Assembly: GCA_026706385.1 (NCBI GenBank) | Contig: JAPOYV010000108.1 | Location: 1-64,000, forward strand | Direction: 5' to 3' | Source of the DNA: Gammaproteobacteria bacterium | GTDB lineage: Bacteria > Pseudomonadota > Gammaproteobacteria > Pseudomonadales > Azotimanducaceae | DNA length: 64,000 nucleotides | Shown here: positions 5,262 to 42,270 of the stretch, piece by piece | Layout of the letters: each line of letters begins with the position of its first letter | Position numbering within the stretch: the stretch's first letter is position 1 | Program-made: the position numbers and the translations under genes | The notes under the pieces: generated by a model | Seen by the model: only the letters and a program-made list of their open reading frames with translations | Told to the model about the DNA's origin: nothing | Database searches by the model: none

Positions 5262-6226
5262 CCGACGACGCGCAGTCGGACGACAACGTCCTCGAGATCC
5301 GCGATCTCGCCGTCGACTTCAAGACCGACACCGGCCTGACCCACGCCCTGGTCAACGTCGGCTTCGACGTGCCCCGCGGCAAGGTGACGGCGATCGTCGG
5401 CGAGTCCGGCTCCGGCAAGTCCGTGACCGCCAACTGCATCATGCGCCTGGTCCAGCCGCCGGGCCGGATCGTGGCCGGCACGATCAACTTCATGCCCACC
5501 GACATGGCACCGTTCGAGATCGTCTCGCTGCGCAAGAAGGATCCCCGACTGCAGGAACTGCGCGGCGGGCATATCAGCATGGTCTTCCAAGAACCGATGA
5601 CTGCCCTGTCGCCGGTCTACACGGTGGGCAACCAGGTCGCCGAGGCGATCCTCTGCCACCGCAAGGTCACCCGGAAGGAAGCCATGCGCGAAGCGGCCGA
5701 GATGCTTGAACGCGTCGGCATCGGCGAGATGGAGCGGCGCATCCAGATGTACCCGTTCGAGTTCTCGGGCGGCATGCGCCAACGCGTTGTGATAGCCATG
5801 GCGCTCGTCTGCCATCCCGAAATCCTGATCTGCGACGAACCGACCACGGCGCTCGACGTCACCATCCAGGCGGAGATCCTGACCCTCATCAAGGATCTCC
5901 AGCGCGACCTCAAGAACTCGGTCCTGTTCATCACCCACGATCTCGGGGTCGTGGCCCAGATCGCCGACCAGGTGGTGGTGATGTACCAAGGCCGCGTCCT
6001 CGAGATCGGCACGGTGCGCCAAGTGTTGAAGGAACCCGTGCATCCGTACACCCGTGGTCTGCTCGCCGCGATCCCCGGACTCGCGCCGAAGGGCGAGCCG
6101 CTGGCCACCATCGCAAGTGTCGTGGGCGATACGGACATCACGACACCCTACCCCATGACCACGCTCGGCGACGGGCGGCAGGTTAGCCTGCCACCCGACA
6201 AAGTCGCATTGGCGGCGGCCGAATGA
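5258..6226 (+). CDS. ABC transporter ATP-binding protein, DppD/OppD type
   Basis: 322 residues with a complete nucleotide-binding domain: Walker A GESGSGKS, Q-loop MVFQEPMTALSP, signature FSGGMRQR, Walker B ILICDEPTTALD and switch His in FITHDLG. The region after VHPYTRGLLAAIPGL is the C-terminal oligopeptide/dipeptide transporter extension. It hydrolyses ATP on the cytoplasmic face to drive uptake through the two permeases. The GTG start at 5258 overlaps the previous stop, and its own stop overlaps the next ATPase start (ATGA). Confidence 0.95.
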   Translation: MTDDAQSDDNVLEIRDLAVDFKTDTGLTHALVNVGFDVPRGKVTAIVGESGSGKSVTANCIMRLVQPPGRIVAGTINFMPTDMAPFEIVSLRKKDPRLQELRGGHISMVFQEPMTALSPVYTVGNQVAEAILCHRKVTRKEAMREAAEMLERVGIGEMERRIQMYPFEFSGGMRQRVVIAMALVCHPEILICDEPTTALDVTIQAEILTLIKDLQRDLKNSVLFITHDLGVVAQIADQVVVMYQGRVLEIGTVRQVLKEPVHPYTRGLLAAIPGLAPKGEPLATIASVVGDTDITTPYPMTTLGDGRQVSLPPDKVALAAAE

Positions 6227-7053
6227 GCACGACCGCGAACGGCGATGCCATCCTCAAGGTGACGGGCCTGTCGAAGTCCTTCGACGGCGTGCCGGCGGTG
6301 GAGGACGTGTCGTTCGACGTGCGCCGCTCGGAAACGCTCGGCATTGTCGGCGAATCCGGCTCCGGCAAGACCACGCTCGTACGCTGCATCCTGCGCGCCA
6401 TCGACCACGAGGAAGGCATCGTCGAGTACAACAGCCGCGACGGCTGGGTCGAGTTGCAGGACATGCGCCCCAAGGAGCTGATCCCGCTGCGCCGCGAGAT
6501 GCAGATGATCTTTCAGGATCCGTTCGCATCCCTGAATCCACGCATGACGGTGCGCGAGATCCTCGAGGAACCGCTCATCATCCACCAAGTCGGCGACCGG
6601 ACCCAACGCCTGGACGCGGTCGTGGACATGCTCAACCACGTGCAACTCGACCGCGACGCCTTGACCCGCTATCCACACGCGTTCTCCGGTGGTCAACGCC
6701 AGCGCATCGGCATCGCCCGGGCGCTCATCCTGCATCCCGACCTCGTGGTCTGCGACGAGTCGGTCTCCGCGCTCGACGTCTCGGTGCAGGCGCAGATCAT
6801 CAACCTGCTCGAGGATCTGCAGCAGGAACTCGGATTGACGTATCTCTTCGTCGCCCACGACTTGAGCGTCGTCCAGCACATCTGCGACCGCGTGCTGGTC
6901 ATGCACCAGGGCCGGGTCGTGGAAAGCGGCGAGGTGGACGAAATCTTCGCCAATCCGCAGGAGAACTACACGAAGCTTCTCCTGTCGGCGATCCCGTCGC
7001 CGGACCCGGACATTCGTCTCAAGCCCTTGGACCGCCGAGAGCTTGGCCTGTAG
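6223..7053 (+). CDS. ABC transporter ATP-binding protein, DppF/OppF type
   Basis: 276 residues, the second ATPase of the importer. Walker A GESGSGKTT, Q-loop MIFQDPFASLNPRMTV, signature FSGGQRQRIGIARAL and switch His in VAHDLSV are intact. Walker B reads VVCDESVSALD, with Ser where nearly all family members have Pro after the catalytic Glu; this is unusual but keeps the catalytic DE pair. It lacks the long C-terminal extension of many OppF proteins and stops at TAG 7051-7053, directly before the TTG of the next gene. Confidence 0.94.
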   Translation: MSTTANGDAILKVTGLSKSFDGVPAVEDVSFDVRRSETLGIVGESGSGKTTLVRCILRAIDHEEGIVEYNSRDGWVELQDMRPKELIPLRREMQMIFQDPFASLNPRMTVREILEEPLIIHQVGDRTQRLDAVVDMLNHVQLDRDALTRYPHAFSGGQRQRIGIARALILHPDLVVCDESVSALDVSVQAQIINLLEDLQQELGLTYLFVAHDLSVVQHICDRVLVMHQGRVVESGEVDEIFANPQENYTKLLLSAIPSPDPDIRLKPLDRRELGL

Positions 7054-11836: not shown

Positions 11837-13486
11837 TCAGACGATCTTCCCGGGCCTCGCGTCCGTGTAGCCTTCCGCGCCGTAGACCACCTCGCCGTTG
11901 ACCAGCACTCTGTCGAAGCCCTCGGCTCTGCGAACGTAGCGCCTCGCTTCGCCGGGGAAGTCGTCGACGAACTCCTCCTTGGTGATGGCCACCCGGTCGG
12001 CGTCGAAGATCACGACGTCAGCGGCCCTGCCCACTTCCAGCGTGCCGCGGTCCCGGATGCCCCAGTCGCGGGCAACTTCACCGGTCATGCGATGAATCCC
12101 GCGCTCCAGGGTCATGGTTCCGGATTCGCGGACGAAGTGGGACAGGAGATAGGTGGTGTCGCCTGTGCCGCAGAACTGGGTGATGTGGGCACCGGCGTCC
12201 GATGCGCCGAAGTGGCAGAGCGGGCTGTCGATCAAACGCGCCACCGCTTCCTGGTCGGCATTCACCACGCCCTCGAGCTTGAACTCGGTGTCGAGATCGT
12301 CCTTGAGGGACAGGTCGAGCACGACCTCGCCGATCCGCTTGCCCTCGGCTTCGGCGATCTCGGCGATGGTGCGGCCCTGGTAGCGCTCGTTCTCCGCCGA
12401 CTTCACGTCGCCAACGCGCATGTTGGCGATGCCGAAGATGCTGCCCTGGCGCGGAACCATCTCCTCGACCAACGCGTCGCGGTTGGCCGGATCGCCGAAC
12501 TTCGCCGCGCGCTCGCTTGCGGGGAGATTCATGATCTCCTTCCAGGTCGGATAGCCGAAGAGGAGCATGCTGGTCTCCGACAGGCGCATGTTCATGTCGA
12601 ACGTCCGCGGCATCGTCTGGCCGTAGACCCGCGCGCCCCGCTCGTGCTGCTCCGTCAACGCCCGAACCTGGTCGTCGAGGGCGCGACCACCCGAGCCGAG
12701 AACGGGCTGCAGGCTGCACGGGATGTCAGCCGCCAGGCTTATGTCGCCAAGCTCACGAATATTGTCGAGCAACTGTTCCGGGTCGACGATGTACGGCACG
12801 ACCTGCCAAACGCCCCGGCCACTTGGACCCATTGCCTTGGCCAGCGCCAGTTTCTCGTCGATCTCCGCGAACCGGCTCGGCACCGGCCGACCCTCCTCGT
12901 CCATGTCAAGGTAGGAACTCGAGATGCCGAGCGCGCCGGCTGCCATCGCCTCGTAGACGATGGCGCACATGGCGTCGATCTCCTTGGCCGTCGCGGCACG
13001 TTCCTGACTCGCCTTGCCCATGACGTAGGCGCGGACGGCCGAATGACCGATCAGCGCACCGACGTTGACGCCGAGCTTGCCGCGGATGAAATCGAGGTAC
13101 TCGGGGAAAGTCTCCCAGCACCAAGGCACCGCGGCATCGAAGGTCGGTTTCTTGATGTCCTCGATCACCTGGAACATCGAGATGAGCTTCGCCGTCCCCT
13201 CCGGCTTGACCGGCGCCAGCGACAGCGAGCAGTTGCCGATCACCACCGTGGTCACGCCGTGCTCTAGAGACGGCGTCGCAAGGCCATCCCAGCACAGTTG
13301 CGGGTCGAAGTGGGTGTGGATGTCGATGAAGCCGGGGCTGACCACGCGGCCCGTGGCGTCGATGACACGATCCGGGTTCTCGATGCTGTCGCCGATCTTG
13401 CCGTCGCGAATGTAGAGATCGCGCCGGGCCGGAGCGGCGCCTGTGCCGTCTACGACCAAGCCGTTCTTGATTGCGGTGGTTGTCAC
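11837..13486 (-). CDS. N-acyl-D-amino-acid deacylase / D-aminoacylase-type amidohydrolase
   Basis: 549 residues of the amidohydrolase superfamily, D-aminoacylase group, which hydrolyses N-acyl-D-amino acids or related cyclic amides. Metal ligands appear in GFIDIHTHFDPQ; further markers are VVIGNCSLSLAPV, GALGISSSYLDMD, and ASDAGAHITQFCG, the metal-binding Asp segment. The N-terminal small beta domain (IKNGLVVDGTGAAPARRDLY) and its C-terminal complement (VGRAADVVIFD) bracket the barrel. No signal peptide is seen, so it should act in the cytoplasm. Possible substrates could be delivered by the peptide-type importer upstream, but this is inference from proximity. Confidence 0.85.
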   Translation of the reverse strand: MTTTAIKNGLVVDGTGAAPARRDLYIRDGKIGDSIENPDRVIDATGRVVSPGFIDIHTHFDPQLCWDGLATPSLEHGVTTVVIGNCSLSLAPVKPEGTAKLISMFQVIEDIKKPTFDAAVPWCWETFPEYLDFIRGKLGVNVGALIGHSAVRAYVMGKASQERAATAKEIDAMCAIVYEAMAAGALGISSSYLDMDEEGRPVPSRFAEIDEKLALAKAMGPSGRGVWQVVPYIVDPEQLLDNIRELGDISLAADIPCSLQPVLGSGGRALDDQVRALTEQHERGARVYGQTMPRTFDMNMRLSETSMLLFGYPTWKEIMNLPASERAAKFGDPANRDALVEEMVPRQGSIFGIANMRVGDVKSAENERYQGRTIAEIAEAEGKRIGEVVLDLSLKDDLDTEFKLEGVVNADQEAVARLIDSPLCHFGASDAGAHITQFCGTGDTTYLLSHFVRESGTMTLERGIHRMTGEVARDWGIRDRGTLEVGRAADVVIFDADRVAITKEEFVDDFPGEARRYVRRAEGFDRVLVNGEVVYGAEGYTDARPGKIV

Positions 13487-13572
13487 TTGAACTCTCCCCT
13501 CACGAAATGCGCGCCTGAGGAAAGCCTACCACCCCGACGGGACGGCGCGGAGCGAGTTCTCAGGCGATCTGG

Positions 13573-13997
13573 TCAGGAACCTGGTGGATCGATAGCGACC
13601 CTTGCGCCCATCCGCCGGAATCCCGTCAGCGCGTCGCTGATGACCTCGTAGTCGACCAGCATCCCGTCCCTGAGGCGGAAGATGCTCGCAACACGCACCT
13701 CAAGGGTCCCGCCGGTCGGCGGAACGGCGTACATGTCCGTCGAGTGCGTCGCGCGCCAGGTCCAGATGCCGACCACTTCGTCATCCAGGCGATCACCCGC
13801 TCGACGGTCAGCTCGACGTCCTTGTTGCGCTCCCGGAACCTCGTCACGTGGGCCACCAGCCCAGCCTTGCCGGGGATGGACTGGGTGTGATCCACCATGT
13901 CGTCGGCCGCCAACTCGTCGATCACCTCGAGCTTGCCTTGGGCGACCACTTCCGTCAGGTAGCGGCGCATCACTTCTTCGGATCTCTGTCGGGTCAT
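13573..13997 (-). pseudogene. SnoaL-like / ester cyclase NTF2-fold protein, frameshifted
   Basis: The first 70 residues read in one frame (SEEVMRRYLTEVVAQGKLEV, DMVDHTQSIPGKAGL, TVERVIA). The rest continues in another frame as DDEVVGIWTWRATHSTDMYA and FRLRDGMLVDYEVISDALTG. Joined, they give a normal SnoaL/ester-cyclase domain of about 140 residues, including the usual 'W..TH' and 'F R..dGki.e.w...D' strands. The frame change lies near 13786-13787 (two extra bases or one missing). It is either a recent pseudogene or a sequencing error. The GC pattern and motif preservation on both sides suggest a very recent event. Confidence 0.75.
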
Positions 13998-14015
13998 TCC
14001 GTTCTCCTCACCCCG

Positions 14016-15314
14016 CTAGCCGAAAAACCGGAAGTCCTCCGTATTCGGAAAGGGAAACAGTTCCGCGAACGCCGAGTTCTCGAGGCCGAGGTGCCGGCGC
14101 AGGGCCAGGTGCACGTGTTTCGGGTAGATGATCGTGCCGCCGGCGTCGTCTCGGCGCAGGGTCGTGGGGTTGATCTTGTGGGCGAAGTGCAACGCGTCGG
14201 TCTCGCCCACGGCGCGGTTGGTCCAGGACTGGTTCTTCTCCATGACGACGAAGCTTCCGATGGGCCAGTGGTCCTTGCCGTCTTCCGCGTTGTAGTGGTT
14301 GGTGCGGCCGAAGTCGGAACCGATCACGACCACGAGGCGATCCGCCACGCCGTGGGTCTCCGCGTACTCCCACAGGTAGTCGACGCTTTCCGTCAGTGCG
14401 CGGAGCAGCCAGTGCTGCTTGGCGTCGTTGCTTCGGTGGGTGTCGAAGCCGCTGAGAAAGAAGTCGGCGCTCACCGCGACGCCCGTGCGGAACGCCAGCA
14501 CGGTCAACTGCGACTGTCGCTTGAGCCCGTTCCAGAAGTTGTCGCCGTCGTAGGCGTACTGCACATCCCGCTCCAGTTCGTCTTCGCCCGGCAGGGAATC
14601 GGCGTAACGTTTCAGTCCTTCGGTGGCGGTGGCGGAGAGCGCCGACGCGTAGTGCCGGCGGTTGCGGGCTTGGCGCGGCAACAGGCCCGGCGCCTCGTTC
14701 AGACGGGCCGCCCGCCGAGCGCGGTATTCCTGCAGCACCGACCACTCGTCGGGCCGGAGAATCTCATCGTTGTCCAACTGATTGGTGTAGGCCAAGGCGT
14801 GGATCCGGTCCGCGTCCGAGAGGCGCGTGAAGCGAATCACCCCCTCGGTGGCAGCGAAACCGCCGAAGTTCAGGTAGGCCAGCGGCTTGTCGGGCGAATG
14901 CTGGACTGCCAGCAAGGCAGTCATGCTCGGGAAGCCTTCGGCGTTCCGGCCGCTCCAGTTGTGAAGGACGCCGGTGGCATGGGAGTTGGTCTGCGCATCG
15001 ACGCCGTTGATGACCAGCGTGCGGTCGTGGTACTTCCGGAAGAACGCAGCGTTACCGGCAACGGGCGCATAGCGAATGCCGCCGGCCTCCTCGACGTCGG
15101 CGCTCTCGGCCCAGTGATTGATGATGGGCTCCCCGGGCGTGTTCGTCTTGGGATCGCAGAAACTCGTGGGATCCCAGGCGCCATCCGCCTGGATGAAGAC
15201 GAAGAACCTCCCGGCGTAGTCGTCGGCGTACGCCAGCGGCAGACGGAATCCGGCCCACGCGCCGACCGCTCCTCCGGCCAGGCCCTTAAGCGCGTTGCGT
15301 CGGTTCATCTGCAT
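14016..15314 (-). CDS. DUF1501 family exported protein (Tat substrate)
   Basis: 432 residues. The N-terminus NRRNALKGLAGGAVGAWAG is a twin-arginine signal, so the protein should be folded in the cytoplasm and exported. The body is DUF1501, an alkaline-phosphatase/sulfatase-like fold of unknown substrate: FVFIQADGAWDPTSFCDP at the start, SGFDTHRSNDAKQHW in the centre, and VVVIGSDFGRTNHYN near residue 310. It lies just downstream of the large c-heme-motif gene on the same strand, as DUF1501 genes usually lie next to DUF1549/1553/1592-like cytochrome-type genes. The two probably work together at the cell surface or in the periplasm. Confidence 0.88.
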   Translation of the reverse strand: MQMNRRNALKGLAGGAVGAWAGFRLPLAYADDYAGRFFVFIQADGAWDPTSFCDPKTNTPGEPIINHWAESADVEEAGGIRYAPVAGNAAFFRKYHDRTLVINGVDAQTNSHATGVLHNWSGRNAEGFPSMTALLAVQHSPDKPLAYLNFGGFAATEGVIRFTRLSDADRIHALAYTNQLDNDEILRPDEWSVLQEYRARRAARLNEAPGLLPRQARNRRHYASALSATATEGLKRYADSLPGEDELERDVQYAYDGDNFWNGLKRQSQLTVLAFRTGVAVSADFFLSGFDTHRSNDAKQHWLLRALTESVDYLWEYAETHGVADRLVVVIGSDFGRTNHYNAEDGKDHWPIGSFVVMEKNQSWTNRAVGETDALHFAHKINPTTLRRDDAGGTIIYPKHVHLALRRHLGLENSAFAELFPFPNTEDFRFFG

Positions 15315-15336
15315 CGTCGTCGCCTTCGTGCCAAGT

Positions 15337-18300
15337 TCACAGGTGGAGGTAACGGTAGTCGGTCATCAGGAGAGCCATCACGACCGCCCACGATTGCGCC
15401 ACGTGGTAAGGGTCCGTTGTCTCGCCGATGATCTTGTGGGCTCGATCCCAATCCAACCAGCGCCAACCAGCGGCGTTCCCGCGCAAGGGCTGCTCCTCCA
15501 CGATCCCCTCGAAAAAGCCCTGGTCCACATGAAATAGGCACCTGCCGGTCGGCCAATCGCACAGCCTCGTGTCATCGGCGGCGCGCCTTCGCTCCCAGAC
15601 GTCGACGAACAGCCCGTAGGCTTCCTCGACATCGGGGGAATCGGTTGAGACGCGCACCCCCAGCAGATCCCAATGCAGGGCGGCCAACCGGGCCTTGATA
15701 CGCCTGGCGGAGCGCGCGCCGATGGTGTCACCATCGATGGAAACCGACAGTCTCGGCAACTCGTCGCCGAGACGCTCGCCCCAGAGGACGAGGTCCATGC
15801 GGTATTCGCCGTCCGCCGCGATCTCAAGCGGGAAGCGCAGGATGGCCCCCTCGCAGCCGTGGAACTGATAGGCGTCTTCCGAGAAATGGCCGCAGTCTCC
15901 GGAGTGGCTTTCGGTGTAGTCCGCGAGTTCCTCCAGTTCCACGGTGGCGACTAGATCCCCTGCCGCATCGCGGAGGTCCAGGCGGTCCACCCATAGATGG
16001 CGGCCTTGGCGGCGCTCCTCGTCCCAGCGGCCGTTCAGGAATGCCAGGGTCACCGTCTTCGTTCCGCGCCGCATGGATCCGAAGGCGGCGAGCGTCTCCG
16101 GCACACCACTCACGCCGCGCACACCGGCGACGCGGTCGATCTCGACCGCTGGCGAGCGCCGCACGTCCACGCCGCGCAGCAGCTTGCGATCGCTGTTCGC
16201 AAGCAGGTAGAGCTCCTTCAGTACGACCATGCGGCTGAGTTCCACGGCGTGGCGCTGCGCGACGGACGCCATCAGCGGCGTCATGTCTCGGGCGCGTTCG
16301 GTGACGCCACCGGAGTCAATGCCGCCGTAGAGCAGGCGGTACTCCCTTCCGAGGTACCCTTGGCGGAATACGAACTGCTTTTCCGGGTCGGGACGAATTC
16401 GCCCCCATTCCACGCCGGTGACGGCGGCGGTCTTGCGGCTAAGCTCCTCCGGCGTGAGCAGACGCTCCACGCCCGCGTCGCGCAGCGCCTCGCGGCGAAT
16501 CGGGTCGTCGTCCACCGCGGCGCCGACGCGGAACCACCGGGACAGCACCAAGTCCGTCAGCAGGTTCTTCAGCAGGTAGGGCCTCCCGCCATTGATGCCG
16601 TCGCGGAGACGTCCGGCAAGCCGCGAGACCTCGCTGGCCTGCGCGTTGGCGGCCAGGAGACGGCCGTCGAAGCCGGTGTCGCTCGGGTCTTCCGGCGCTG
16701 TCGCGACCTCGGCCCCCATCACTGCTGGCCACCAGAACTTCACCGTGGACTCGGCGAAACGCGGATCTGCGGTGACTTCGTCCGCCAGCCAGCGCAGGCT
16801 CAGGTCGGCATCCGGAACGACTTGGCCGTCGAAACCCGGCAAGCGCATGTCGCGGTACCAGGTATCGCCTTCAACGTAGAGCGAATCCGAACCGTCCGGC
16901 GGGGTCTTGTAGAACTCGTCGAGGGAGTCAAGGCCACCGTAGTTCTGGCGGTAGTAGCCCTCGTTGCCGTAGTTCTGGAAGGCGCCCGCCATCGGGTCGA
17001 GAACCGCATGGCAGACCGTGCAGGCACCGTTGTGCATGGTGGGATTGTCGGTGTCGGCGAGAGCGACGGGGTCCGTCGTCCGGGGCGCCGATTTCTCCAC
17101 GTCGAGCCCGAGGAAGTGGTAGTAGGTCCAGCGTGCCCGCGCGCGGTTGCGGTTCGTCGCGGTACTCGGGTAGCGGTGCAGGAAGGCGTTGGTGTTGAGG
17201 ATGCCGGCGTGGGGGATGTCCATCCTCAGGTTGCCGTTGGCGATGACGCGCAGACCGAACTCCTGGCTGAACCGCAAGACCTTGGAACTGTCCTTGCCGT
17301 AGTACGCGTAGATCTCGCTCGGGCGGAACTCCAACGGATCGTCCTTGTTCTCGAACTCCGTTTTGGCCCCGTAAATCTCGGCCGCAAAGGGATTGGCCAT
17401 GATGTAGTCCGCGTTGAGGATCTCCGTGTAGGGCAGATCCTGCTCCACGACATGGGCGATCAGTTCCAACGGTGCCCGCGCAACGCCGTACTGCACCGCA
17501 CGGAACCATCGACTGCCATAGAAGGCGTTGCCATAGCGTCTGCGGCCGTCGTACATGATCTGGGCGAGCCGCACGAAATACTCGGCGTTCGGGTCGAGGA
17601 CGTGGTAGATGTGCTTGTCGGTCAGCAGCCGATCGTTGGCCGCCCGCACCAGGAACTCGTGAAACGCTCGTCCCTGCATCAGGTCGCGGATCGCGCGGCG
17701 GATGCCCACCGTGCCGTTGGCGAGCGCGTCAAGCTCTTGCTGGGTCGGGTTCCGGCCGGCGAAGATGATCGCCGCGCGTCGAAACGTGGCCTCGAGAGAC
17801 GCCATCCGCACGGTGTCGAACAGCGTCTCCGGCGTCACTGTCGCGGCAGCGAGCTCCTCGCCGAGTAGGCCGAGCCATGTGCTCATGTGCTCGAACTCGG
17901 CCGAGCCCGCCGCAAGCTGGACACCGCCCCCGTGCGACACCCCCTGGACCTTGTTCAGGAGCAGCTCCGCGCCGTCGTCGACGAGGCTGAGGAAGTCGGC
18001 AACAACCCCCTGGTTTCGCTCACGATGGGCGGCGCTTGAGCCTGCCGAGAAGACGATGCGCGTAGTCCCCGACACGCCGCCTTCGACGTGGCAGTTCACG
18101 CACTGGTCCTGGACGATGGGGGAAATGTGCTCGTCGAAATAGCTGGTTGCCGACTCCCCCGTCGCGGACGAGAACGCGATGCGAGGAATCACCCGCGCGG
18201 GCGTTTTGGGTATTTTCCGCCCATGCCAGACGTGGGGCGGCCGAGGCACGGGGTGCATCGTCGACGCGTCAGGACTACGCAGGTGCGCCGGGTGGAATGC

Positions 18301-29915: not shown

Positions 29916-30338
29916 CTAGCGCTCCGTCGGGTCCGCGCCGTCCCGCGGCGCGCCGGTGCCGCTCGAGCCCATGAACAGGGTCTCGCCGTTGGTGAACGTC
30001 ATGCGCCGCCCGTTGGCGCGCATCGCGCGGTCCTTGCCCTGGTAGCCGTCGATCACCACCACCGTGCCGATCGGCACCGTGTTGCGCGTGATGCCCCGGC
30101 GGTACAGCGTGTTCGGCGTCCCCGCCTCCACCATCCACACCGTCTTGCTGCCGTCGGCGTTGGTGTGCTCGATGTGGAACCACGAGTGCGGGTTCACCCA
30201 CTCGATGCGCACGATCGGACCCTTCAACTGCACCGGCAGGTTCGGGTCGAACTCCGCGCCGAAGGCGTGGTGCGCCGTCGCCGGCGGCGCGGCCAGCGCC
30301 ACGGCGGCAAGCAGGATTGCGGCAGTGCAGAGTCTCAT
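29916..30338 (-). CDS. DUF6152 family periplasmic protein, copy 1
   Basis: 140 residues with a signal peptide (LCTAAILLAAVALAAPPATA). The mature protein begins HHAFGAEFDPNLPVQLKG and contains IVRIEWVNPHSWFHIEHT, the usual DUF6152 core, followed by GTPNTLYRRGITRNTVPIGT. The family is small, exported and of unknown function; the His pair at the mature N-terminus could bind a metal (inference). It is the third gene of the module and its protein sequence is identical to that of copy 2 at 32401. It ends 4 bases before the amidohydrolase start. Confidence 0.88.
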   Translation of the reverse strand: MRLCTAAILLAAVALAAPPATAHHAFGAEFDPNLPVQLKGPIVRIEWVNPHSWFHIEHTNADGSKTVWMVEAGTPNTLYRRGITRNTVPIGTVVVIDGYQGKDRAMRANGRRMTFTNGETLFMGSSGTGAPRDGADPTER

Positions 30339-32400: not shown

Positions 32401-32823
32401 CTAGCGCTCCGTCGGATCCGCGCCGTCCCGCGGCGCGCCAGTGCCGCTCGAGCCCATGAACAGGGTCTCGCCGTTGGTGAACGTCATGCGCCGCCCGTTG
32501 GCGCGCATCGCGCGGTCCTTGCCCTGGTAGCCGTCGATCACCACCACCGTGCCGATCGGCACCGTGTTGCGCGTGATGCCCCGGCGGTACAGCGTGTTCG
32601 GCGTCCCCGCCTCCACCATCCACACCGTCTTGCTGCCGTCGGCGTTGGTGTGCTCGATGTGGAACCACGAGTGCGGGTTCACCCACTCGATGCGCACGAT
32701 CGGACCCTTCAACTGCACCGGCAGGTTCGGGTCGAACTCCGCGCCGAAGGCGTGGTGCGCCGTCGCCGGCGGCGCGGCCAGCGCCACGGCGGCAAGCAGG
32801 ATTGCGGCAGTGCAGAGTCTCAT
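32401..32823 (-). CDS. DUF6152 family periplasmic protein, copy 2
   Basis: The 140-residue product is identical to that of 29916-30338; only two silent base differences separate the genes. It closes the first module of the train. A leader with two hairpins follows before the second module starts. Confidence 0.88.
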   Translation of the reverse strand: MRLCTAAILLAAVALAAPPATAHHAFGAEFDPNLPVQLKGPIVRIEWVNPHSWFHIEHTNADGSKTVWMVEAGTPNTLYRRGITRNTVPIGTVVVIDGYQGKDRAMRANGRRMTFTNGETLFMGSSGTGAPRDGADPTER

Positions 32824-34879: not shown

Positions 34880-35491
34880 CTACAACCACATCGCCGCCTT
34901 GGCGGCGTCAGCAAGCCCGACGTTGTGACGCTCGTAACCGGCGATCTCGAAGTCGTCCCTGAAGGACTCCCAGATGAACTCCTCGTACCGATCGTCGAAG
35001 AAGTCGGTGAAACCGCCAGGCGGCCTGATCCCCCGCTCGAGCACGTGCGGGAACGAAGCGATCGTAGCCGGGTCCACGAATGGCAACTCGAGAAGGCATT
35101 CCGGCAACCTCTCGAAATAGAGCAGAAGCGAGACACCAGCCCCGTCAATGAACTCTCGATAGGTAGCGTGCTGCGCGTCCGTGCGTCGACCACCTTCGAT
35201 GAGACCGTCGATGTCCCTCGCTGTTGGCGGTTCAATGTCTACGCGCAGATCGACCTGTCGCGGACGATCATCCCAAGGCTTGAAGAAAAAGCCGCTCACC
35301 GCCCGGTCGTAGGGATTGCGCACAGTCGTGAAGACCAGGAACGACCGAGCGTCTTCGGGAATCCCCTGGTAGTCGTGATGGCCGCCGTACCACACGCCGC
35401 CGTAGTACCGCATCAGCCACTCGTTCATCGACTTCGAGGCCGTGCGCGGGATGCCGATATAGACGAACCTGTGGCTCGGCGAGATGATCAC
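34880..35491 (-). CDS. Sulfotransferase-like P-loop protein
   Basis: 203 residues. The 5'-phosphosulfate-binding loop reads FVYIGIPRTASKSMNEWL near the N-terminus, and the 3'-phosphate motif reads TVRNPYDRAVSGFF. This matches the short carbohydrate-type sulfotransferase_2 family that uses PAPS. The acceptor is unknown. The GTG start overlaps the stop of the deoxyribosyltransferase gene (GTGA), so it is the third gene of the selenoprotein operon. PAPS could come from the cysD-cysNC genes 14 kb away. Confidence 0.8.
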   Translation of the reverse strand: MIISPSHRFVYIGIPRTASKSMNEWLMRYYGGVWYGGHHDYQGIPEDARSFLVFTTVRNPYDRAVSGFFFKPWDDRPRQVDLRVDIEPPTARDIDGLIEGGRRTDAQHATYREFIDGAGVSLLLYFERLPECLLELPFVDPATIASFPHVLERGIRPPGGFTDFFDDRYEEFIWESFRDDFEIAGYERHNVGLADAAKAAMWL

Positions 35492-36132
35492 CGCTTCCTC
35501 GCGACATGCTCGGCCACGCGCATGAGCGCCTGCTCGAAAGACGCCTGCAGCATCACGCCCGAGTCGTCCAAGGCACCGATCATCATCAGGTTGTCGGCCA
35601 TCCCGAAGTCCTCGATCAAGAGGCCGTCGATGTCCACGGCCGAGTTGTCGGGACTCTGACCGACCTGCCGGCGCACCCTGTCGGGATACAGGCCTGCAGG
35701 CTCAGCTTCGCCGTAGAACGGCTCGGCGTCGTAGTAGGCGAACACAGGCTTGCCCAAGCCCCGCATGTACCCCATCTCGAACGCCGTGCCGCCGTCCATG
35801 CCGGGGCCTCGGAAGCGCACCATGTTGGCGACCACCGCATGGGCCCTGTCCATCATGGCGATGTTCGCGCGATAGATCCTGATCCCTGTCTCGCGATCGG
35901 GTTGGAAGTCCGGAATCTCGTTGTCGAGGGGGTACAGGCCCACCAGCTTGAACGGCCAGTTCTGACTGGCATTCAGCCGCTCGATCAAGCGCTTCTTGTC
36001 CTCGCCGGCTTCCCCAGCGTTGGGCAGGAAGACCTCGGGGCCGGCGAGGTAGACGAAGTAGGCCGGTCGGTCGTCCGCGTGCGCAAAAGCAGCGCACAGC
36101 AGGACGCATGCCGCCAACAGGCGGTAGTGCAC
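35488..36132 (-). CDS. Exported nucleoside 2-deoxyribosyltransferase family protein
   Basis: 214 residues from a GTG at 36132. Family features: YFVYLAGPEVFLPNAGE at the start of the Rossmann-like fold, RANIAMMDRAHAVVANM, and GPGMDGGTAFEMGYMRGLGKPV, carrying the catalytic Glu segment. These enzymes exchange or hydrolyse deoxynucleoside bases in the cytoplasm. Oddly, this one begins with a clear signal peptide, YRLLAACVLLCAAFAHA, directly before the fold, so it may act in the periplasm. It lies 11 bases after the selenoprotein stop and overlaps the sulfotransferase start. Confidence 0.82.
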   Translation of the reverse strand: MHYRLLAACVLLCAAFAHADDRPAYFVYLAGPEVFLPNAGEAGEDKKRLIERLNASQNWPFKLVGLYPLDNEIPDFQPDRETGIRIYRANIAMMDRAHAVVANMVRFRGPGMDGGTAFEMGYMRGLGKPVFAYYDAEPFYGEAEPAGLYPDRVRRQVGQSPDNSAVDIDGLLIEDFGMADNLMMIGALDDSGVMLQASFEQALMRVAEHVARKR

Positions 36133-36143
36133 GAAGCCGCTCC

Positions 36144-37289
36144 TCAACTGTCGCTTGGCATCAGGAACCGCCAGAGCGGCTCCTTCGCCCCGGACTCGCG
36201 CATCGCATCGCGCGCTTGCCTGATGACCTCGCCCGTCTTCGTCTCGTCGCGGAACCAGCGGTAGCCGGCCCAAGCGGCTGGCGTGTGGTCGGCGATCTCC
36301 ATCGCGGCCATCTCGTAGTAGCCGCGGATGTCCTGGGAGACCCGCGCCGGAATACCGGGAATGCCGGCCTGCTTCCACGGGTGGCCCTCGGCGACCCGGA
36401 TGAACGACTCGATGGCGGCGGGAATGGAATCGGCGTCGAGCAGGCGCACGGCCCCGGCGCGGTTGCCGTACTTGGCGATCGCGCGGTCGTAGGCGGGACG
36501 CAAGCCCTTCGCCTCGTCGATCGCGGGATGCGCGTCCGGATCCATGCGCGGGGGCAGCGGACACGCGAGGGGTTGCGTCTCGCCGTCCTCGATCACGACC
36601 TCGTAGTCCTCGACTGCAGGCTCGGTGCGTTCGAGCATGGCGAAGGCGCGCTCGAGGACGCGACGCTGGAACGCCGCGTCGCCCGGCACACCGAGCGGCC
36701 GGCCCAGTGGGAAGTCGCAGAAGAGGCCGCGCGGCGGCGCGGTTCCGTAGATCTGGCCGCGGATCGAGCCGATGGCGACCGTCGCCATGCCGGCCGCTTC
36801 GAAGATGTGCGCGAGCGTACAGACCGTACGCGTGCAGAGTGGTCAGACAGGGGTGAGCAGGACGACATCCACGCCTTGCTCGGCGAGATACTTGGCGCCA
36901 GCCGGGCCGCCGTCCATGCGGATCGCCGCGAGATCGAACTGGTTGCCGGCGAAGGCGAGATGCACGTCCGAGACGCTGCCGATCATGCCGTCGTCCGCCA
37001 TTTCCTCGAGGCGGTCGATGGGGAAGACGACGTTCAAATCGCCGCTGACGCCGCTGGCGTCGAAGTTCGGGCTCCAGTGGCCGACGACGATATCCCGGCG
37101 GTGGCGCTCGAGCACGCGGTAGCCCGTGTCCACAACGGCGAAGTCATCATCGTCCGCATGGTGCAACGATGCCGACGACACGAGCGCCACCTTGGCCTCG
37201 GCCAGCGGTTTCGGCGTGGTGAACGCCGGTGCTTCGAAGGTCGGGCACGGGATGCGCGACGACGCCTCCTTGATGGACTGATCGGTCAT
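36144..37289 (-). CDS. Glycine/sarcosine/betaine reductase B-type selenoprotein (in-frame UGA = selenocysteine)
   Basis: One 381-residue gene read through an in-frame TGA at 36843-36845, giving VVLLTPV-U-PLCTRTVCTL at residues 142-158 with Sec149 and Cys152 in a UxxC redox pair. Before it stand GHWSPNFDASG and LNVVFPIDRLEEMADDGMIG; after it HIFEAAGMATVAIGS continues the family core. This is the GrdB-like family (PF07355) in which the TPVUPLC motif is normal. A SECIS-like hairpin lies at the right distance after the UGA. Conventional gene callers will split it into two ORFs (36843-37289 and 36144-36788). Aerobic relatives are of unknown function; reductive cleavage of a C-N or similar bond is inferred. 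It heads a three-gene operon. Confidence 0.9.
36815..36831 (-). promoter_or_regulatory. Bacterial SECIS-like hairpin
   Basis: On the coding strand GCGTAC and GTACGC form a perfect 6-bp stem around a GGTCT loop. The loop begins 17 bases after the UGA. The E. coli fdhF element also presents GGUCU in its apical loop, 18 bases after its UGA, bound by SelB. Its place inside the coding sequence is as expected for bacteria. Confidence 0.85.
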
Positions 37290-38932: not shown

Positions 38933-38951
38933 CGTGTGCGCGGGTAATGCC

Positions 38952-39209
38952 ATGACCATCACCACCGTAACAGGCCGCGATTTCAACCAAGACATCGGAG
39001 GGGCGAAGAGGGCCGCTGCGAAGTCGGGACCCGTGTTTGTCACGAACCGAGGCAAGACCACGCAAGTGCTGCTGAGCATCGAGGATTACCAACGCATCTC
39101 GGCGCGAGGCCGCAGTCTGGTGGAGGCCTTGGCCATGCCCGGCCTAGCGGACATCGACTTCGAGCCGCCAAAGATGAAGATCGAGATTCGTCCGGCTGAT
39201 CTGTCCTGA
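38952..39209 (+). CDS. Phd/YefM-type antitoxin
   Basis: 85 residues from ATG 38952. The sequence TVTGRDFNQDIGGAKRAAAK followed by GPVFVTNRGKTTQVLLSIED is the Phd/YefM fold with its DNA-binding N-terminus. The C-terminal tail (FEPPKMKIEIRPADLS) would wrap the PIN toxin. It overlaps the toxin start by one base (TGATG). A palindromic operator lies upstream. Pairing of a Phd-type antitoxin with a PIN toxin is common. Confidence 0.9.
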   Translation: MTITTVTGRDFNQDIGGAKRAAAKSGPVFVTNRGKTTQVLLSIEDYQRISARGRSLVEALAMPGLADIDFEPPKMKIEIRPADLS

Positions 39210-39631
39210 TGTTCCTTCTCGATACGAACGTCATCTCCGAGTTGCGCAAGGTTGGAGACGGCAGGGCCGAGGAAGGCGTCGCGGCTTGGGTGGAAGACGC
39301 AGACGCCGCCAGCTTCTACGTCTCCGTATTGACCCTGATGGAACTGGAAATCGGCATTCTGCGGCTCGAAAGGCGCGACGTTCAGCAGGGACAGATGTTG
39401 CGGACGTGGATGGACACGCTTGTACTTCCCGAGTTCCGGGAGCGCACTCTACCTGTCGACCCCGCCGTGGCCTTGATGTGCGCGCGGTTGCATGTGCCCG
39501 ACCCGCGGGCTGAACGCGGTGCGCTGATTGCGGCAACGGCCATCGTCCACAGCATGAGCGTCGTCACGGGGAACGTCGCGGACTTCGAGAAAACGGGGGT
39601 CGAGGTCATCGATCCGTGGACTCGGCACTGA
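39209..39631 (+). CDS. vapC: VapC-type PIN-domain toxin
   Basis: 140 residues, complete. The acidic residues of the PIN ribonuclease active site are present: LLDTNVISELRK (first Asp), LTLMELEIGILRL (Glu), and RAERGALIAATAIVHSMSVV with VTGNVADFE (distal part; the usual D of 'D..IAATA' is replaced by G-A here, ERGALIAATA, so the third acidic residue may be shifted). It should cleave RNA when not bound by the antitoxin. Confidence 0.88.
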   Translation: MFLLDTNVISELRKVGDGRAEEGVAAWVEDADAASFYVSVLTLMELEIGILRLERRDVQQGQMLRTWMDTLVLPEFRERTLPVDPAVALMCARLHVPDPRAERGALIAATAIVHSMSVVTGNVADFEKTGVEVIDPWTRH

Positions 39632-41877: not shown

Positions 41878-42270
41878 ATGCCGCGATTGCTCCTCGACTC
41901 GACGGTGCTCATCGACGCGCTGCGCGGCCGCCCCGCCGCAGCGCGCGTGGTTCGACTGCGTCGGCGTGGCATCGAGCCTTGGGTTTGCGCGATCTCCGTA
42001 GAGGAGATCTGGCGGGGCTTGCAGTCGAACGAGGAGGGCAGCGCGCGTCGGCTCTTCAATGCGCTTCGTGTGGCCCCCCTCGGCGCTGCCGAGGGGAGGC
42101 GAGCCGGCACCTGGCGGCGTTCATTCGCGACACGCGGCGTCACGCTGCATCAGGCTGACTGCCTGATCGCGGCTGCGGCAGCAGGAATCGGTGCCAACCT
42201 TGCCACCGCGAACATCGACGACTTCCCGATGCACGGACTCGTCGTCGAGCACTGGCCCGTAGGCGTCTAG
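41878..42270 (+). CDS. vapC: VapC-type PIN-domain toxin
   Basis: 130 residues and complete: RLLLDSTVLIDALRGR (catalytic Asp), CAISVEEIWRGLQ (Glu), LHQADCLIAAAAAGIGANLA (Asp) and ATANIDDFPM (distal Asp). It is the second intact PIN toxin in 3 kb and should be a ribonuclease held inactive by the preceding antitoxin. Confidence 0.9.
   Translation: MPRLLLDSTVLIDALRGRPAAARVVRLRRRGIEPWVCAISVEEIWRGLQSNEEGSARRLFNALRVAPLGAAEGRRAGTWRRSFATRGVTLHQADCLIAAAAAGIGANLATANIDDFPMHGLVVEHWPVGV

Follow-up and report, generated by a model that had tools for sequence, protein, structure and literature searches.

An in-frame UGA at codon 149 of a gene in the 64,000-nucleotide stretch of DNA analyzed here (the window) is very probably decoded as selenocysteine (Sec), so that the gene would encode one selenoprotein of the PrdB/GrdB superfamily. 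We favor Sec decoding on comparative sequence grounds because the in-frame UGA is conserved, a bSECIS-type hairpin is conserved as well, and the genome encodes the Sec machinery. The locus provides a clear example of a single gene that would be split into two by standard annotation.

The gene lies on the minus strand as a single frame of 381 codons plus a stop, with one internal TGA in the motif TPV-U-PLC (Table 1). A mechanical listing of open reading frames (ORFs) reports two products in this common frame, of 148 aa (36843..37289, minus strand) and 214 aa (36144..36788, minus strand). The part that follows the TGA has an ATG of its own at 36788, and an automatic caller could for this reason report it as a second gene. 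The initial annotation had located and sized both ORFs correctly, and the single protein it proposed across the TGA is borne out, on a strand (minus) that it left unstated. When the window was searched for frames interrupted by TGA, four candidates emerged, and only the one at 36845 has a UxxC motif. The source assembly is a draft of 5.1 Mb in 134 contigs and is 98% complete.

Table 1. Positions of the predicted selenoprotein gene, its elements and the adjoining gene in the window
Feature	Position	Strand	Remarks
PrdB/GrdB-like selenoprotein gene (predicted)	36144..37289	-	381 aa with UGA149 read as Sec
In-frame UGA (putative selenocysteine 149), UPLC (UxxC) motif	36843..36845	-	Cys in distant homologues
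Putative partner Cys152 of UxxC motif	36834-36836	-	
bSECIS-like hairpin	36815..36831	-	6-bp stem GCGUAC/GUACGC, 5-nt loop GGUCU at 36825-36821
C-terminal extension (about residues 224-381)	36147..36620	-	past PrdB homology, no Pfam match
Nucleoside 2-deoxyribosyltransferase gene (PF05014), next gene	35491..36138 (start provisional)	-	possibly co-transcribed

Family membership and functional context

The best NCBIfam match of the full-length protein is the PrdB model TIGR04483, which spans residues 10-222 and thereby crosses residue 149 (117.4 bits, E 6.6e-34), in agreement with the earlier claim that family similarity continues on both sides of the TGA. The four GrdB/GrdF/GrdH-type models scored 35-42 bits, where their cut-offs range from 65 to 800; for the GrdB model TIGR01917 the score was 35.1 bits and the cut-off 602.2. 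The Pfam family PF07355 (GRDB) was matched at 24.2-25.2 bits, just above its gathering cut-off of 22, with protein residues 27-146 aligned to profile positions 221-345 of 347. The gene had initially been called GrdB-like, and continuity with PF07355 was to be sought around the TGA. The superfamily assignment holds and the Pfam match is above cut-off, but this match ends at residue 146, where the model itself runs out, and Pfam alone gives no continuity past the TGA. Its profile scores put the protein closer to PrdB than to GrdB, and PrdB-like is the better label.

Selenoproteins of this type have been described before. A marine metagenome study presents PrdB as a UxxC selenoprotein family with 42 Sec sequences (PMC1088965), and for pfam07355 a GOS paper lists 235 members with Sec and 110 with Cys (PMC2398784). 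As described there, the marine PrdB selenoproteins have the same UxxC site as the window protein. The GrdB/GrdF/GrdH proteins of PF07355 likewise have a UxxC site according to a review table, but only about the last third of their models aligns with our protein. By these accounts, the window gene is a further member of the PrdB-type UxxC selenoproteins already on record and is ordinary in kind.

That the protein serves as a genuine PrdB subunit of D-proline reductase alongside PrdA is unlikely, even though PrdB is its best profile match and D-proline reductase PrdB has the same UxxC site. The score falls well short of the curated equivalog cut-off of 300, and about 155 further C-terminal residues extend past the PrdB model. 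A search for PF09338 (PrdA/GrdE-type), made without a positive control, found 0 matches in the same genome and in 0 of 369 genomes of the class. When all frames of at least 100 codons were considered, no neighbor recurred in over 3 of the 10 groups into which the homologous loci fall, and some of the neighbor clusters are out-of-frame shadows. Among 20 homologous loci, 3 (L025, L027, and L028) have the PF05014 gene immediately downstream. From the sequence comparisons, D-proline reductase activity should not be assumed.

An AlphaFold model of moderate quality (pLDDT 66.8, pTM 0.55) places residue 149 between a predicted strand (142-146) and a predicted helix (153-165). A Foldseek search with this model gave no match with an E value of 0.001 or lower; the best reached 3.3e-3. 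Sequence matches in the PDB, the best at 0.25 and 0.0062 (chloroacrylic acid dehalogenase relatives and a designed assembly), were set aside as too weak for homology. The motif, the PrdB/GrdB family and the structure model suggest that Sec149 and Cys152 form a selenol/thiol redox pair. On the same grounds, we think it somewhat more probable than its converse that the protein acts as a stand-alone selenol-dependent reductase, probably without a PrdA-type partner. Our literature searches found no substrate for the PrdB-like selenoproteins considered here, although a functional study may still exist.

Conservation of the UGA codon

Named genomes were scanned with the protein in its Cys form as query, by peptide patterns that omit the site itself, and yielded 20 loci that are 59-96% identical. 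Their records are titled Gammaproteobacteria or Pseudomonadales, Candidatus Binatia, and Acidimicrobiia-type Actinomycetota or Microthrix, bin titles that can be wrong. TGA stands at residue 149 in all 19 loci that cover the site, some of which are near-copies of each other, and it is never replaced by TAA or TAG; the 20th locus is a C-terminal fragment that falls outside the site. The genuine stop of the gene is visible in 16 of the 19 and is TGA, TAG or TAA. In a wider survey of the source genome and 57 relatives, 37 of the 58 genomes yielded 100 matches (totals counted by eye from listings). Each of the 98 that span the site has one TGA, with its exact place checked for those retrieved as loci; two of them also contain one TAG, and the two matches that have no TGA are C-terminal fragments. 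Homologues that end at this codon, which the initial annotation had named as evidence against its reading, thus number 0 among the 19 named loci and 0 among the 98 matches. A conserved in-frame UGA at a position where homologues have Cys is expected of a bacterial selenoprotein, and this is the pattern observed.

Selection was compared on the two sides of the TGA between the window gene, which is common to all comparisons, and 17 of the 20 named loci (L041-L043 left out). The pn/ps ratio is 0.14-0.36 upstream and 0.16-0.34 downstream in 16 of these 17 comparisons; synonymous sites are saturated in 7 of the 17. The exception, L025, has ratios of 0.05 upstream and 1.08 downstream; its gene is one codon shorter, and the downstream value therefore probably reflects an out-of-register comparison. 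By this measure, purifying selection is similar on both sides of the TGA.

These observations bear on the possibility that the TGA is a real stop codon, ending a 148-aa protein that is followed by a second gene or a remnant. Such an arrangement would match the two ORFs of the mechanical listing, the second with its own ATG, but it is very improbable given a TGA shared by 19 of 19 homologues from three phyla by title, selection that is alike on both sides, and Cys homologues that run through the site.

The bSECIS-like hairpin and the selenocysteine machinery

The loop of the hairpin listed in Table 1 starts 17 nt past the UGA, and a 49-nt fold has an energy of -10.6 kcal/mol. PMC13188914 quotes a bSECIS model with a loop of 3-9 nt that has G in the first two positions, an upper stem of 4-16 bp, a distance of 16-37 nt from the UGA, and a minimum free energy of at most -7.5 kcal/mol. 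With its 5-nt loop, 6-bp stem, spacing and energy, the window hairpin fits this quoted description. Taken alone, its stability is ordinary for its composition (z 0.07; 101 of 200 shuffled versions equal or exceed it).

The stem was also compared across sites. We collected 38 sites by a pattern of TGA, Pro, Cys and one of five pre-Sec residues, which excludes members with other pre-Sec residues and makes the test one of the stem rather than of the TGA; 37 were used, and the minus strand of L048, an unrelated frame, was left out. The five core pairs are complete in 36 of the 37 sites, with a mean of 4.97 pairs compared with 3.29 for synonymous recoding (sd 0.17, highest of 500 = 3.73). Only 6 of the 37 form every pair of an extended 8-pair helix, yet this version too exceeds its null (6.51 versus 4.55), and the folding energy of 29 nt averages 2.0 sd below that of synonymous versions.

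Covariation was assessed in 20 sequences comprising the window gene, 16 homologues, and 3 paralogues. Standard pairs fill 96.7% of the cells, compared with a shuffled mean of 90.1% and at most 62.5% in slid registers. Three of the six stem pairs show compensatory changes on both sides, and the outer pair fails in 4 of the 20 sequences. Codons 157 and 158 each keep one and the same wobble base in 18 of 18 sequences, even though their residues vary. By contrast, of 87 columns in which a degenerate residue is invariant, 0 keep a constant wobble base. In L039 and L040, codon 158 specifies Ala instead of Thr, and a matching change at the partner base in codon 154 keeps the pair; in L054 the pair between these two codons is G-U.

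The genome encodes the set of selA, selB, selC (tRNA-Sec), and selD that a bacterial selenoprotein requires. The tRNA-Sec, on contig C84, scores 68.8 bits against a gathering score of 47 and has the anticodon UCA according to ARAGORN. Profile searches of the genome place selB (374.2 bits) next to it and find selA (536.9 bits), which adjoins selB as judged from the ORF list, and selD (250 bits) on contig C3. The initial annotation had predicted these genes, and their presence, together with the lack of any site-covering homologue that ends at the codon, supports its selenoprotein reading. At locus L020, selA, selB, and tRNA-Sec stand in a row on one strand (12050-15392, minus), with a 4-base overlap of selA and selB, and a PrdB-like Sec paralogue (5800-6957, plus) lies about 5 kb from this row.

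In bacteria, SelA and SelD make Sec-tRNA(Sec), and SelB carries it with GTP to the UGA. By this established route, SelA and SelD of the present organism would make Sec-tRNA(Sec), and the hairpin would tether SelB-GTP with Sec-tRNA(Sec) at the UGA. Because of this tethering, Sec149 would be inserted in place of termination. Among the 58 genomes surveyed above, selB is present in 34 of the 37 that have the gene family and in 4 of the 21 that lack it (Fisher p 2.6e-8; totals again counted by eye). Most of this association comes from setting one bacterial family against others, and within that family the test lacks power. The three genomes with the gene family and no selB above cut-off (G006, G031, and G033) belong to that bacterial family and are drafts that are 91-92% complete.

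Generic read-through of the UGA, or its decoding as a residue other than Sec, is highly improbable. We found no point in its support, and it is opposed by the tRNA-Sec with anticodon UCA alongside SelA, SelB, and SelD, by the covariation in the bSECIS-type hairpin, by the Cys of distant homologues, and by the use of TGA as the final stop of the window gene and five homologues. Least probable of all, to the point of being negligible, is a mistake in sequencing or assembly, or a nonsense mutation of recent origin. The window does come from a draft in 134 contigs, but the same TGA recurs in 19 of 19 separate records, near-copies included, and at the same motif in four other paralogues of the genome. 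On the basis of this conserved, identical TGA, a plain stop, an assembly error, and a pseudogene were rejected.

Cys counterparts, paralogues and a Sec-only clade

To the favored Sec reading, an even draw of 398 genomes across the phylum, searched with TIGR04483, adds a view of the Cys forms. It returned 24 matches in 18 genomes. Five of these come from the source genome and two from G193, and all seven have the TGA; among the other 17, 15 (14 genomes) have Cys at the site and two are short and without the motif. SelB is over cut-off in G193, which has the Sec form, and in 1 of the 14 Cys-only genomes, with 13 of 14 lacking it. That one genome, G343 (locus L077), has selB over cut-off yet encodes the Cys form of the PrdB-like protein.

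The Cys proteins of other Pseudomonadota (L076-L088, L090, and L094) likewise have homology to the PrdB model. Where the window protein has Sec, they carry PNCPVCHQ, PNCPICHQ or PLCPVCHQ, and their stop-to-stop frames are 312-336 codons in 14 of 15 cases and 420 in the other.

The source genome holds five genes of the family, the window gene and paralogues on contigs C84, C77, C96, and C101, all with TGA at U-P-x-C. A tree was built from 73 segments (54 Sec, 15 Cys, and 4 unlabelled), of which 59 remained (47 Sec, 12 Cys) once unlabelled, short, and duplicate entries had been dropped. It needs two Sec/Cys changes and contains several long branches, and the tree program cautions that joins may be false. 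A clade of 30 rows, all 30 Sec, includes the window gene together with its C84 and C77 paralogues and holds records titled Pseudomonadota, Binatota, and Actinomycetota.

The C-terminal extension is predicted to be helical in the moderate-quality model. The alignment used for the motif and the extension comprised the window gene and 15 of the 20 named loci (L025, L031, and L041-L043 left out). The match extends to at least residue 360 in sequences of the window type, the C84 and C77 paralogues, and L056, but only to 306 in L058 and to 246 in L057; for the C96 and C101 paralogues it goes no further than residue 220. Less ordinary than the gene itself are the five Sec paralogues in one genome and the Sec-only extended clade in records of three phyla. 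We lean slightly toward regarding this clade as a separate family of stand-alone selenol reductases that act on a substrate other than D-proline and have multiplied in the bacterial family. A family of uncultured bacteria, Gammaproteobacteria by the nearest record titles, thus carries several predicted PrdB-like selenoproteins, and the Sec-only clade with its C-terminal part offers a concrete target for PrdB-like roles outside amino-acid fermentation.

Two other features of the window were observed. A direct repeat (29916-30215 and 32401-32700) is 99% identical over 300 nt at a spacing of 2485, and ORFs of 140 aa and 329 aa at this repeat are each listed twice with the same sequence; it is either a tandem duplication or an assembly effect. 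In the ORF list, the plus-strand stretches 38934-39631 and 41878-42270 resemble, by eye, an antitoxin/PIN-type toxin pair and a second PIN-like ORF.
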